64,000 nt of DNA, from assembly GCA_009837445.1 (NCBI GenBank), contig VXTM01000009.1:1-64000 (forward strand), given 5' to 3'. The notes under the pieces are model-generated. The model did not search any database. It had not been told where the DNA came from and worked only from the letters and a program-made list of their open reading frames with translations. Within the stretch, counting starts at the first letter, position 1, and each line of letters starts with the position of its first letter. This stretch comes from Acidimicrobiaceae bacterium. Its GTDB lineage: Bacteria; Actinomycetota; Acidimicrobiia; Acidimicrobiales; Aldehydirespiratoraceae. The position numbers were made by a program, and so were the translations under genes. Of the stretch, positions 22,651 through 26,663 are shown piece after piece.

Positions 22651-22722
22651 GCCCCCGTAGCTCAGGGGATAGAGCAACGGCCTCCGGAGCCGTGTGCGCA
22701 GGTTCGAATCCTGCCGGGGGCG
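22651..22722 (+). tRNA. tRNA-Arg (anticodon CCG)
   Basis: Cloverleaf folds cleanly: a 7-bp acceptor stem (GCCCCCG with CGGGGGC), a D-arm GCTC...GAGC, an anticodon stem ACGGC/GCCGT with loop CTCCGGA, a 4-base variable loop, and a T-arm GCAGG-TTCGAAT-CCTGC. The discriminator base is G at 22722 and CCA is not encoded. The anticodon CCG reads CGG codons. Confidence 0.97.
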
Positions 22723-22723
22723 C

Positions 22724-23902
22724 ATGACCGTGACGGACCCGGCGCCCGCGCCAGCCAAGAAACCCCGCTGGACCTACCAGTGGAAGGAACTCCACGACGA
22801 GGTCATCACCTCGGGCCTGTGCACCGGCTGCGCCGGGTGCGTGATCGCATGCCCCCACCACGTGATCGGCTACACCCACGAGCCCGGGGCCTACAAGCCG
22901 TTCCACCTCGAGGAGGAGCTAGGGGCCGACGACTGCGTACACGGGGTCAAGGGCTGCACGTCATGCACCCGGGCCTGCCCCCGGTTCCGTATGTGGGAGC
23001 CCGAAGCCGACATGCACCTGTTCGGCCGGGAGCGACACCCCGACGAGATGTCGGGCATCTACTCCGACATCCTGCTGACCCGGGCCAGCGACGACTTCGT
23101 CTACGAGGTAGGCCAGGACGGCGGGCTGGTGTCGGCCATCCTGATCTGGTGCATGGAGAACGACATCATCGACGGGGCCCTAACCAGCGGCGTGGAGTCG
23201 CTGCCCAACGGAGAGCCGGGCTGGAAGGCGTTCCCGATGGTGGCCACCAACCGCGACGAGGTCCTGCGGGGCGCGGGCAGCCGCTACACCTACTCGGCCA
23301 ACCCCATCGCCTTCGAGGAGGCCCGCGACAAGGGGCTGGACCGCCTGGCGCTGGTGGGCATGAGCTGCCAGACGTCGGTGGGGCCGGTGATGTGGCACCG
23401 CAAGGTGGGCAAGGTGAGCAAGCCGATCAAGCTCAACATCGGCCTGCTGTGCTCGAAGTCGTTCGACGACTCGCTGTTCGACGAGCTCTTCGAGGTGAAG
23501 TACGGCCTGCCCAAGGAGCAGATCTCGAAGATGAACATCAAGGGCGTCTTCCAGATCTGGACCAAGGACGGCCGCTACCACGAGATCAACCTCAAGGAGT
23601 GCCACGCCTGGACCCGGGAGGGCTGCAACCTGTGCCCGGACTTCGCGGCCGAGCACGCCGACATCTCGACCGGAGGCATCGGCGACCTGACCGACTGGAC
23701 CCTCACCATCGTGCGCACCGAGTTGGGCCGGGCCGTGATCGACGCCATGGTGCGCGACGGCGCGATCGAGACCCGGCCCGGCGACGACGACCCCGGCGCC
23801 ATCGCATTGATGCATCGCCTGTCGGCCAAGAGCCGGGAGCGCTGGCCCCAATGGGCCGACGGCGCGGCCCGCCTAGGGCTGCCCGAACGCAAACCGGCCT
23901 GA
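22724..23902 (+). CDS. FrhB/FdhB-family iron-sulfur flavoprotein (coenzyme F420 hydrogenase/dehydrogenase beta subunit-like)
   Basis: 392 residues. Two [4Fe-4S] motifs are near the N-terminus: CTGCAGCVIACP and CTSCTRACP. The FrhB_FdhB N and C domains follow, with VGQDGGLVSAILIW, GAGSRYTYSANP, LVGMSCQTSV, NIGLLCSKSFDD and CNLCPDFAAEHADIS. Members of this family transfer electrons between F420 (or pyridine nucleotides), flavin and Fe-S centres; F420 use is plausible in this lineage but not proven. The ATG begins two bases after the tRNA discriminator base, with no room for a ribosome site, so translation after tRNA processing would be leaderless. The selenoprotein gene follows after 50 bases. 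Confidence 0.85.
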   Translation: MTVTDPAPAPAKKPRWTYQWKELHDEVITSGLCTGCAGCVIACPHHVIGYTHEPGAYKPFHLEEELGADDCVHGVKGCTSCTRACPRFRMWEPEADMHLFGRERHPDEMSGIYSDILLTRASDDFVYEVGQDGGLVSAILIWCMENDIIDGALTSGVESLPNGEPGWKAFPMVATNRDEVLRGAGSRYTYSANPIAFEEARDKGLDRLALVGMSCQTSVGPVMWHRKVGKVSKPIKLNIGLLCSKSFDDSLFDELFEVKYGLPKEQISKMNIKGVFQIWTKDGRYHEINLKECHAWTREGCNLCPDFAAEHADISTGGIGDLTDWTLTIVRTELGRAVIDAMVRDGAIETRPGDDDPGAIALMHRLSAKSRERWPQWADGAARLGLPERKPA

Positions 23903-23952
23903 GGCACGACCCCACGACGACCCCTTCTCCCTCCAATTCCAAGGAGCCTGAC

Positions 23953-24567
23953 ATGGACATCGAGTTCTGGATCGACCCGCTTTGACCGTGGTGCTGGGTG
24001 ACGGCCCGTTGGGTCGTCGACGAGGTGCAGCCGGCCAAGAACCTGAACATCACCTGGCAGCCGATCAGCCTGTTCTTCAAGAACGATCCCGATCCCGAGG
24101 GCGACTACTACACGCACTCCTACTTCAGCCTGCGGCTGATGAGGGTGCTGGAGTCGGTTCGGGAAGCCGAGGGCGACGACGCGGTGGGGCCGCTGTACTG
24201 GGAGTACGGCCGGCGCCTGCACCACGACGGTGTGCGGGAGTTCCCGGTGGCCGACGCGCTTGAGGCCGTCGGCTACGACACCTCGCATGCGGCTGCCTTC
24301 GATGACGACTCCTGGGATCCCGAGATCCGCAAGCGCATGGACGAGGGTCTGGCCCTGTGCGGCGACCAGGTGGGCACCCCGATGATCGCCCTCAAGGACC
24401 GCAACGGCGACAAGCAGGGCTACTTCGGCCCGGTCATCACCCGGGTGCCGCCCCCCGAGGACTCCCTGGCCATGTGGGACGCCCTAGTCGCCATGATGAA
24501 CGTGTCCGGATTCTGGGAGCTAAAGCGCACCAGAACCGAGCGCCCCGAGTTCGGCCCCCGCCCCTAA
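23953..24567 (+). CDS. Probable selenoprotein, DsbA-like mycothiol-dependent oxidoreductase (Rv2466c family)
   Basis: 204 residues if the TGA at 23983-23985 is read as selenocysteine: M-D-I-E-F-W-I-D-P-L-U-P-W-C-W-V. U11 and C14 then replace the CPWC of Mycobacterium Rv2466c, a mycothiol-dependent nitroreductase with a thioredoxin/DsbA fold. The start has a strong AAGGAG site six bases upstream (23941-23946), which would make no sense for a 10-codon ORF. Family matches continue after the TGA: SYFSLRLMRVLES, LYWEYGRRLHHDG, GTPMIAL, YFGPVITRVP, and FWELKRTRTERPEF at the C-terminus. A SECIS-like hairpin follows the TGA. A GTG-started, truncated product from 23998 would lack the active site. Confidence 0.85.
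23999..24019 (+). promoter_or_regulatory. Putative bacterial SECIS hairpin
   Basis: Stem TGACGGCCC (23999-24007) pairs with GGGTCGTCG (24011-24019), nine pairs including two G-U, with apical loop GTT. The loop begins 22 bases after the TGA, and its first base is G. This fits the bacterial SECIS rule of thumb: a loop about 16-37 bases from the UGA, with a G among the first two loop bases. It lies within the coding frame, as bacterial SECIS elements do. Confidence 0.7.
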
Positions 24568-24586: not shown

Positions 24587-25681
24587 CTACGGGGCGCAGA
24601 AATGTGACCAGACGGCTTCGGATCTGGCCGGACCGATTCCTCGGACCGCTTCGAGGTCCGCCCGGCTGGTGAACGGCTGAGCCTCGACCAGCCTGGCCGA
24701 GAGCACCTCGCCGATGCCGGACACCGCGTCGTACTGGGCCGCCGTCCGGCCAGCGATGACGCACTCGTCCGGTGGAGCAACGGTGGTGGTCGGCGTTGTG
24801 GTCGCCGGGGCCTGGGGCTGGGCCGAGAACCCGGGTGCCTGGTCGCCGCAACCCGCGAGTGTCCGCCCGAGCGCTTCTGCTTCGGACTGGTCGACGCTGA
24901 GGTCCCAGGCCAACTTAATGGCCAGCGTGGTGCGAGCCAGGAAGCACCGCCCCGCCGGGGTCACCGAGTACCCGCCACCACACGCCGAGGACGAGGCGAT
25001 GTCGGCGTCCGACCACTCGGAGATGTCGTCAGCGCCCTTGGACTGGTTCACACAGGCACGCGACGCCACGTGGTTGTCCGGGTCCTGGCTGAACCGCTGC
25101 TTCTGGGCCGCGGGCCAAGCCCAGCCGCCCGACTCGTGCGCCTCGTGCAGAGCCACCACATGGTCGACGTTGCAGGTGTCTATGGGCGAACCGGTGTAGG
25201 GGTCAGGAGAGCCGACCGCTCCACGGCACAGGTCGCTGTTGTGAGGCCCCCAGTGATCACGGTCATAACCCGAGTCGTACTCGGCCGCCACCGGCAGTGA
25301 GACCGACGGGACCGACACCAACGGAACCGACCCCTCAGGAACCGATCTCTCCGGCACAGAGACCTCGGGTGCAGAGACCTCGGGCACAGAGACCTCGGGT
25401 GCAGAAACCTCGGGTGCAGAAACCTCGGGTGCAGAAACCTCAGGAGCCGACGCCTCGGGCAACGAAACCTCAGGAACCGACGCTTCCGGCAACGAAGCCT
25501 CGGGCACGACTGTGGTGCTCGCAGACGTGGACTCGCGCTCAGGTGCGGCGGGCAACGTTGGATCCGCGGCCGGTCCGGAGCCGTCAGCCGACCCGCAGGC
25601 GACCGTGACGGCCAGCGCCAGTGCGGCGGTGATTCGCTTAGACCGGGCGAGGCGGGACATGCGTCGACCTAGGCCGTTCAT
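24587..25681 (-). CDS. Secreted lipoprotein nuclease: PEVS repeats, DUF1524-like HNH domain, helix-hairpin-helix
   Basis: 364 residues from the ATG at 25679-25681. A lipoprotein signal ends at Cys29 (LALAVTVACGS). Residues about 60-130 are a pentapeptide repeat (PEASL, PEVSA, PEVSV). The HNH/DUF1524-type nuclease domain carries CNVDHVVALHEAHESGG, then QDPDNHVASRACVNQSKGAD, the pattern of GmrSD-like His-metal nucleases. A Thr/Pro linker leads to a ComEA-like helix-hairpin-helix (GIGEVLSARLVEA, AVRGIGPARSEAV), which binds DNA non-specifically in other proteins. It probably cleaves extracellular DNA at the cell surface. It faces the selenoprotein gene convergently. Confidence 0.85.
   Translation of the reverse strand: MNGLGRRMSRLARSKRITAALALAVTVACGSADGSGPAADPTLPAAPERESTSASTTVVPEASLPEASVPEVSLPEASAPEVSAPEVSAPEVSAPEVSVPEVSAPEVSVPERSVPEGSVPLVSVPSVSLPVAAEYDSGYDRDHWGPHNSDLCRGAVGSPDPYTGSPIDTCNVDHVVALHEAHESGGWAWPAAQKQRFSQDPDNHVASRACVNQSKGADDISEWSDADIASSSACGGGYSVTPAGRCFLARTTLAIKLAWDLSVDQSEAEALGRTLAGCGDQAPGFSAQPQAPATTTPTTTVAPPDECVIAGRTAAQYDAVSGIGEVLSARLVEAQPFTSRADLEAVRGIGPARSEAVWSHFCAP
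25311..25510 (-). repeat. 15-bp tandem repeats coding PEVSx pentapeptides
   Basis: Units such as GCAGAAACCTCGGGT and GCAGAGACCTCGGGT repeat with near identity between 25361 and 25440 and more loosely on both sides. Each unit encodes one pentapeptide of the Pro/Glu/Val/Ser stalk in the secreted nuclease. Copy number is likely to vary between strains. Confidence 0.8.
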
Positions 25682-25703
25682 CGCTCGACCTCGACTCGTC
25701 CTG

Positions 25704-26663
25704 CTACAACGGCAGGGGAACCGTCTCCACCGGTTCACCTCTCAGCGCGGCCAGGACCTTGGCGACCACCTGGACGGAGACGTCGCGCTGGGCTGCGCCG
25801 GTGCTGGCGCCCAGGTGGGGGGTGTGGACGACCCGGGGGTGGCCAATGAGGGGATGATCGGGCGGCGGAGGCTCCTGGTCGTAGACGTCGAGGCCCAGTC
25901 CGGCCAGGCGGCCGTCATCGAGGGCGTCCCGGGCCGCCGCAGGGTCGATGAGGCTGCCCCGGGCCGCGTTCACCACGATCGCCCCGGGCTTGATGGCGGC
26001 CAGCGCCACCTCGTCCAGCAGCGCAGCGCCGTCCTCCTGCGCCACCGCGTGCAGGCTCACGAAGTCCGACTCAGCCAGCAGCTCGGGAAGCTCGACCATC
26101 CTCGCCCCGTGCTCGGTAGCGACCTCGGCCGGGATGTACGGGTCGGTGGTCAGCACGGCCATCTCGAAGGCCAGTGCCCGGTGGCCCACAGCCCGACCTA
26201 TGCGGCCGAAGCCGACCAGGCCGAGCGTGGCGCCCGCCAACTGCACGCCGACGTACTGCTTGCGGTCCCATTTCCCGGCCGCCAGCGAGTTGTGGGCGTC
26301 GGTCACCCGGCGGGCCGTGGCCAGCATCAGCGCGAAGGCGTGCTCGGCCGCGGCCAGCATGTTGGCCTCCGGTGTGTTGACCACCGCGACACCCCGCTCG
26401 GCCGCGGCCGCGAGGTCGATGTTGTCCACGCCCACTCCGGCGCGGCCGATCACCCTCAGTCCCGATCCGGCCGCGATCAGCTCGGCATCCACCCGGGTGC
26501 CGCTGCGCACGATCAGCGCGGCCGCGTCCCGGACCGACTCGAGCAGCTCGGCCCGGCTCTGACCCTCCGCGAATACGGCATCGACATCGGGATCGGAACG
26601 CAGGCGGTCCGCGCCGGCCGCGCCCAGCGGCTCGGCCACCAGCACCCTGTGTCGCTCAGGCAT
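25704..26663 (-). CDS. D-isomer-specific 2-hydroxyacid dehydrogenase, short SerA type
   Basis: 319 residues. NAD-binding motif LGLVGFGRIGRAVGHRA (about 145-160). The catalytic residues of the family are seen: Arg in VNAARGSLID, Glu in LDVYDQEPPP, and His in HTPHLGAST. AGVGVDNIDLAAAAERGVAVVNTP is typical of 3-phosphoglycerate dehydrogenases. It lacks the C-terminal regulatory domains of full-length mycobacterial SerA. It probably starts serine synthesis from 3-phosphoglycerate, but a different 2-hydroxyacid cannot be excluded. Confidence 0.88.
   Translation of the reverse strand: MPERHRVLVAEPLGAAGADRLRSDPDVDAVFAEGQSRAELLESVRDAAALIVRSGTRVDAELIAAGSGLRVIGRAGVGVDNIDLAAAAERGVAVVNTPEANMLAAAEHAFALMLATARRVTDAHNSLAAGKWDRKQYVGVQLAGATLGLVGFGRIGRAVGHRALAFEMAVLTTDPYIPAEVATEHGARMVELPELLAESDFVSLHAVAQEDGAALLDEVALAAIKPGAIVVNAARGSLIDPAAARDALDDGRLAGLGLDVYDQEPPPPDHPLIGHPRVVHTPHLGASTGAAQRDVSVQVVAKVLAALRGEPVETVPLPL

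Follow-up and report, generated by a model that had tools for sequence, protein, structure and literature searches.

A probable selenocysteine-containing member of the Rv2466c family in Acidimicrobiia

The locus and its protein

The window (the whole 64,000-nucleotide stretch of DNA analyzed here) belongs to a metagenome-assembled genome (MAG) of the Acidimicrobiia, 3.9 Mb in 52 contigs, 93.8% complete and 1.1% contaminated; among named genomes, those closest to it are MAGs of Acidimicrobiaceae and Acidimicrobiia. On its forward strand, at 23953–24567, lies a frame of 204 residues that opens with ATG and ends in TAA (24565–24567). A Shine–Dalgarno-like AAGGAG, read directly on the same strand at 23941–23946, leaves a gap of 6 nucleotides to the ATG; a purine run of this kind (AAGGAG or like it) precedes the start in most same-genus copies of the gene and is absent from many others. 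Codon 11 of the frame is TGA (23983–23985), and 193 codons follow it. With the TGA read as selenocysteine (Sec, U), the translation begins MDIEFWIDPLUPWCWVTARWVV, and the active site, UPWC, is the C-P-W/F-C signature with U for the first C. A SECIS-like hairpin follows at 23998–24021, also on the forward strand. Upstream on that strand, at 22694–23902, is a gene for an FrhB/FdhB-like F420 and Fe-S oxidoreductase subunit (PF04432, 106 bits; PF04422, 61 bits), the start of which is uncertain.

By profile and by fold, the window protein is clearly a member of the Rv2466c family. In Pfam, it matches PF22234 (Rv2466c-like) at 122.4 bits against a cut-off of 27, and it marginally misses PF01323 (DSBA; 25.5 bits, E = 1.3e-5, cut-off 25.6); no NCBIfam model matches it at E ≤ 0.001. 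A sequence search of the PDB returned Rv2466c (4zil, 4nxi, 5xur) and its Mycobacterium leprae homologue (4wkw) with E values of 1e-31 to 1e-34 (1e-33 to 1e-34 for Rv2466c itself); in the alignment with 4zil, the TGA falls on the leading Cys of the CPWC in DPLCPWCW. An AlphaFold model, made from 20 rows of the U-containing clade with Sec written as Cys, has a pLDDT of 91.2 and a pTM of 0.88. The ten PDB chains closest to this model in Foldseek are all Rv2466c or the M. leprae homologue, with TM scores by query of 0.76–0.83, and FrnE of Deinococcus ranks next, at about 0.5. The part of the frame downstream of the TGA evolves under constraint, with dN/dS values of 0.04–0.22 in 11 same-genus comparisons and 0.37 in a comparison with one more distant genome. 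The preliminary description of this DNA, made from its letters alone, had pointed to an ATG preceded by a Shine–Dalgarno element, to a TGA in precisely the position of the leading CPWC cysteine and to a frame that continues for 193 codons, and all of these features are present as described. Its assignment to the Rv2466c family is upheld by Pfam, by the PDB sequence search and by the fold.

Distribution of the TGA codon and of the selenocysteine machinery

A search of 198 relatives with the window protein gave a match in 156. We fetched 79 of the matches: all 70 listed with one in-frame TGA, the site-covering matches with no stop down to E = 2.5e-63 and a small number of lower-scoring ones. Unlisted matches and the majority of weaker paralogues lie outside this set. 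Among the matches listed, codon 11 is TGA in 68 genes from 66 genomes. Loci from named genomes agree, with TGA in all 22 of the 24 that cover the site (L072 and L074 do not), but they come mostly from organisms already represented and do not enter our totals (L020 and L052–L075 were dropped as the same gene or largely the same organisms). A class-wide draw of 395 genomes gave 64 matches to a profile of the U clade at E ≤ 1e-60, of which 44 were listed with one TGA and 20 without; inspection of the site in all 64 found TGA in 44 and TGC or TGT in 20, adding 25 TGA genes to the 68 among relatives. The total for the class is thus at least 93 TGA genes, spread over 91 genomes and reaching down to about 51% identity, 24 of them in other orders. 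Most of the genomes compared are MAGs, with completeness of 63–100%. The TGA copies contain no further in-frame stop.

The TGA is therefore not unique to this assembly, a possibility that the preliminary description had raised, and the exchange of U and C among homologues for which it proposed to look is evident: against the 93 TGA genes stand 44 other homologues with TGC or TGT at the site, and no third type of codon occurs among the fetched loci that cover the site. Outside the class, a phylum-wide draw (396 genomes, 99 of them matching at 1e-20) contained no TGA at the site among the rows checked. Nine rows of that draw listed with one TGA, outside the pattern of the site, were fetched; each proved to have TGC there, so their TGA falls elsewhere in the match; five rows with TAA or TAG (G289, G389, G399, G372, G214) were left out of the site check. 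Among the relatives, the site is likewise TGC or TGT in four matches listed with one stop: G139 and G059 (TGA), G069 (TAG) and G071 (TAA). In two genomes, G154 and G185, a second copy of UPFC type (L111 and L114) accompanies the UPWC copy, giving two putative Sec paralogues.

The preliminary description had asked whether the genome holds any sel genes. tRNA-Sec, selA, selB and selD all score over their curated cut-offs: tRNA-Sec at 68.3 bits (cut-off 47; called by ARAGORN as tRNA-SeC with anticodon tca), selA at 370.9 (267.9), selB at 277.9 (242.25) and selD at 359.6 (125), with selA and selB spaced 1.6 kb apart on contig C21. Control genomes exceeded the same cut-offs in 1 of 14 cases for selA, 2 of 14 for selB, 2 of 14 for selD and 5 of 14 for tRNA-Sec. 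The tRNA-Sec cut-off alone is therefore unspecific, and a tRNA-Ser of the genome itself passes it at 48.5 bits. The selD gene (L018; C6:36209-37123) has one in-frame TGA of its own, in the context HGAG-TGA-GCK, and the genome thus likely codes for at least two selenoproteins.

Across the 198 relatives, selA is matched in 136 genomes (132 over cut-off). Each of the 66 TGA genomes contributes a match, over cut-off in 65 and a fragment in G046, versus 70 of the 132 others (Fisher 2e-14, from a cross-tabulation made by hand, with kinship ignored and with two genomes that hold gene ends only, G006 and G007, counted among the 132). Among the matches listed, the sole Cys orthologue in the family of the window genome that covers the site, in G019, comes from a genome with no selA match. 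The best tRNA-Sec hits of G019 (50.0 and 48.5 bits, 73 and 88 nucleotides) resemble ordinary tRNAs, the clear ones scoring 58.7–68.5; with the genome 91% complete, absence of the Sec genes is unproven. The converse fails: three genomes (G181, G135, G067) have a Cys codon despite selA and tRNA-Sec, and one (G120) has a Cys codon and selA with no clear tRNA-Sec. Several tRNA-Sec-like hits occur in G139 (two above 66 bits) and in G069 (at least three over cut-off, at 58.7, 50.9 and 47.5).

In a tree of 78 proteins, which leaves out rows from other orders and two sequences cut by contig ends (L120, L121), all 66 U rows fall inside one clade of 70 with support of 99/98. The other four members of this clade (L077, L102, L103, L115) have Cys, as does every row outside it. 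The Sec/Cys label changes five times on the tree, and at least four of these changes are forced by well supported branches. The simplest reading would be one gain of Sec followed by four reversions to Cys.

The hairpin and the decoding of the TGA

Counting the T of the TGA as 0, positions 15–24 pair with 28–35, 37 and 38 around a GUU loop at 25–27, so that the hairpin begins 12 nucleotides, and its loop 22 nucleotides, after the TGA. In window coordinates, the 5′ arm is 23998–24007, the loop 24008–24010 and the 3′ arm, with one bulged G, 24011–24021. The stem has eight uninterrupted pairs (GACGGCCC/GGGUCGUC), nine if U-G is allowed and ten with the bulged G. The nine-pair hairpin of the preliminary description, with its G-starting loop 22 bases after the TGA, was found as described, its ninth pair being the U-G. 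Its three-nucleotide loop and 3′-side bulge differ from the fdhF element of Escherichia coli, and binding of SelB to a loop of GUU (or AGGUG type) with such a bulge is putative. The general arrangement is that of bacterial SECIS elements, in which a hairpin whose small apical loop contains a G lies shortly past the UGA inside the coding sequence, as described in the available portion of PMC1088965.

The preliminary description took the presence of the hairpin to argue for Sec, and for the single sequence that argument does not hold: the folding energy of the window hairpin alone is ordinary (z = −0.88; 40 of 200 shuffles fold equally well), and among 1000 synonymous recodings 5.7% equal it in stability. 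No Rfam family matches the hairpin, and a scan of viral contigs with its pattern found nothing. What does support the argument is the comparison of species, and the hairpin counts as evidence only because covariation and codon constraint could be followed between them. Ten pairs can form in 53 of the 68 TGA genes among relatives, nine in 11 and eight in 4; the corresponding numbers for the further 25 are 12, 7 and 6, and the hairpins of L105 and L108 fold poorly. The pair 20–32 joins the wobble bases of Thr17 and Val21, where all changes are synonymous. In the 93 TGA genes, this pair is GC in 83, GU in 3, UA in 3, AU in 2 and CG in 1, the one remaining copy (L042) having an unpaired AC that breaks the covarying pair; it forms in 4 of 12 Cys genes.

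In a covariation test on 45 distinct rows, 95.8% of cells are paired, a level reached in 0 of 500 shuffles. Cells changed on both sides number 5, versus 0.8 in shuffles, and the covariation score is 0.116, versus 0.087; again 0 of 500 shuffles reach either value, although kinship among the rows inflates this test. Only 1 of the 10 pairs has changes on both sides, a measure reached by 307 of 500 shuffles, and the covariation term of RNAalifold is small (−0.36). Sliding the 3′ arm by one to three columns lowers the pairing to 13–57%. Codon entropy is 0.50 bits over the seven hairpin codons, versus 1.17 bits over 63 other conserved codons (Mann–Whitney p = 4e-4). Comparison of these sequences shows that the hairpin codons are under synonymous constraint between species. 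Among Cys copies, L102 (G181:C1:127249-127872; CPFC) retains 9 of the 10 hairpin pairs and looks like a recent reversion from Sec to Cys with a leftover SECIS. The other Cys copies keep 2 to 8 pairs, L134 (G314) retaining 8.

These observations bear on three other accounts of the TGA. A recent nonsense mutation in a gene on its way out, or an error in base calling, needs a single substitution from TGC, and the window sequence is after all a metagenome assembly; but the same TGA is common to 93 genes in 91 genomes, the TGA copies lack other in-frame stops, and purifying selection acts after the TGA in all 12 comparisons (dN/dS 0.04–0.37). Because the codon is conserved across several orders of the class, we regard this account as refuted and give it next to no probability. 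It could also be that the TGA is a true stop, with translation resuming at a downstream start such as GTG 23998, or with regulated read-through. That GTG opens an open reading frame of 189 residues, without the active site, which is likely what a gene finder would report. Yet the FW.DP. motif before the TGA and PWC after it are both conserved in the alignments, the TGA swaps with Cys codons only, its presence follows selA, and GTG 23998 is itself the first codon of the hairpin; a true stop therefore seems very improbable. Hardly more probable than a base-call error is that UGA is decoded as Cys or Trp, through another tRNA or by misreading. Every Cys-codon homologue seen has Cys at the site, and Cys is placed at UGA under low selenium in other systems. 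However, a tRNA-Sec with UCA anticodon, selA, selB and selD are all in the genome, the conserved hairpin would be superfluous for such decoding, and TGA also terminates genes here, for instance the upstream gene at 23900–23902. The window gene is thus very probably a selenoprotein gene, a judgment drawn from sequence comparison, and Sec would be inserted at codon 11.

Relation to known families, possible function and genomic context

It is almost as probable that the gene product is a Sec-containing thioredoxin-fold reductase of the Rv2466c (DsbA-Mrx1) branch. With Rv2466c (PF22234; 4nxi, 4zil, 5xur), the window protein shares full-length homology, the fold (TM 0.78–0.83 for the closest chains), the place of the C-P-W-C motif and a C-terminal ELKRTRTE.P.F block; it differs in the predicted Sec in place of the nucleophilic Cys19 and in the SECIS-like mRNA hairpin. 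The C-P-W/F-C signature is also shared with NCgl2339 and NCgl2478 of Corynebacterium glutamicum, which form a CPFC DsbA-Mrx1 cluster and, according to the available portion of PMC8280269, are Cys enzymes reduced via MSH/Mtr; the U clade includes the UPFC type as well (L111, L114).

Known selenoproteins raise the question of whether this family already lies within the “DsbA-like UxxC” group (COG2761/PF01323) reported by the surveys of the Sargasso Sea and GOS. That group also consists of thioredoxin-fold UxxC proteins predicted from metagenomes (available portions of PMC1088965, PMC2398784 and PMC13188914), its members are filed in the survey tables, as far as these are available, under COG2761 or pfam01323, and the window protein does hit PF01323 at E = 1.3e-5. 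The 25.5 bits of this hit nevertheless fall below the cut-off of 25.6, against 122 bits for PF22234, and the group is filed in a different domain family. Structures of FrnE, which we take to typify COG2761, resemble the model at a TM of only about 0.5. Hosts reported for DsbA-like UxxC proteins, in the portions of text available, include Desulfovibrio and Anaeromyxobacter. Neither genus is known to contain mycothiol. Membership in the known group thus seems unlikely, if by no means negligible.

The available portions of PMC1088965, PMC2398784 and PMC13188914 contain no Rv2466c, mycothiol or Acidimicrobiia wording where they treat DsbA-like UxxC, and Table 1 of PMC13188914 (2026), as available, gives 119 selenoprotein (sub)families, DsbA-like UxxC (PF01323) among them, with no Rv2466c, mycothiol or actinobacterial wording. 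No open-access paper pairs “selenoprotein” with “Rv2466c,” and no Rv2466c-type selenoprotein appears in the available portions of open-access texts, including PMC5029168, PMC9312934, PMC12013277 and PMC1794560, most supplements being outside this scope. The only open-access paper found with both “Acidimicrobiia” and “selenocysteine” is PMC5649159, according to the available portion of which most bins of sponge symbionts contain SelA and SelB.

We lean, with some reserve, toward a new selenoprotein family. It would be the first Sec version of the Rv2466c reductases linked to mycothiol, arising a single time at an early point in one class of actinobacteria, with at least four later losses. Selenium and mycothiol redox chemistry would then meet in one active site, and paired synonymous changes would preserve a SECIS hairpin that overlaps an invariant motif of the protein. 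The family name itself deserves the same modest confidence, since some of these sequences may already be included in the broad class of DsbA-like selenoproteins, of which NIP15863.1 and AACY01178397 are deposited representatives. If the proposal is right, the list of selenoprotein families grows, and it does so in a class with hardly any described in the open-access literature. For the 93 genes, a standard gene finder would drop the first codons along with the active site, or call the gene broken. Sec/Cys pairs at about 60–70% identity within one class would constitute a natural experiment on the gain and loss of selenium in a thiol reductase, one that includes a genome without detected Sec genes and a Cys copy still with its hairpin, and the paired wobble changes offer a clear test of SECIS upkeep inside an active-site coding region.

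In the mechanism that we propose, ribosomes would start at ATG 23953 and meet UGA at codon 11, where SelB with Sec-tRNA-Sec, bound to the hairpin 12 nucleotides past the UGA, would allow Sec to be inserted and no stop to occur. Sec11 would then stand in place of the nucleophilic Cys19 of Rv2466c, with Cys14 as the resolving Cys (Cys22). Rv2466c itself uses Cys19 as nucleophile and Cys22 for resolution; it acts as a reductase on mycothiolated disulfides and on a mycothiol-arsenate adduct, and is without DsbA oxidase activity (available portion of PMC8280269, citing Rosado 2017). By analogy, the window enzyme most likely reduces mixed disulfides that link proteins to mycothiol or a related thiol of low molecular weight, or else related oxidized or arsenical adducts, and the Sec-thiol intermediate might be resolved by Cys14 or by a small thiol. 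Dependence on mycothiol itself we consider evenly balanced. Two MshC-like genes score 412.6 and 405.8 bits, against a cut-off of 485.1, and also pass the cysS model (346.1 and 355 versus 340); the best MshB-like gene, at 220.7 bits, is just below its cut-off of 224.35. The two MshC/CysS-like genes (L125, C46:55365-56450, 374 residues; L126, C26:149731-150867, 403 residues) both score higher with MshC than with cysS.

A further candidate for the redox chemistry is the upstream neighbor. In 37 of the 68 TGA loci, an FrhB-like gene of the same orientation lies no more than 200 nucleotides upstream, and every one of these loci belongs to the GTDB family of the window genome; such a gene is also near the Cys copy of G019. 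This lineage-specific neighbor might be a redox partner of the enzyme; no conserved operon partner was common to eight more distant loci, as judged by eye from lists of open reading frames. On the other side of the gene, at 24587–25738 on the reverse strand, an open reading frame of 383 residues carries, by eye, VPEVS/APEVS repeats between nuclease-like and helix-hairpin-helix parts.
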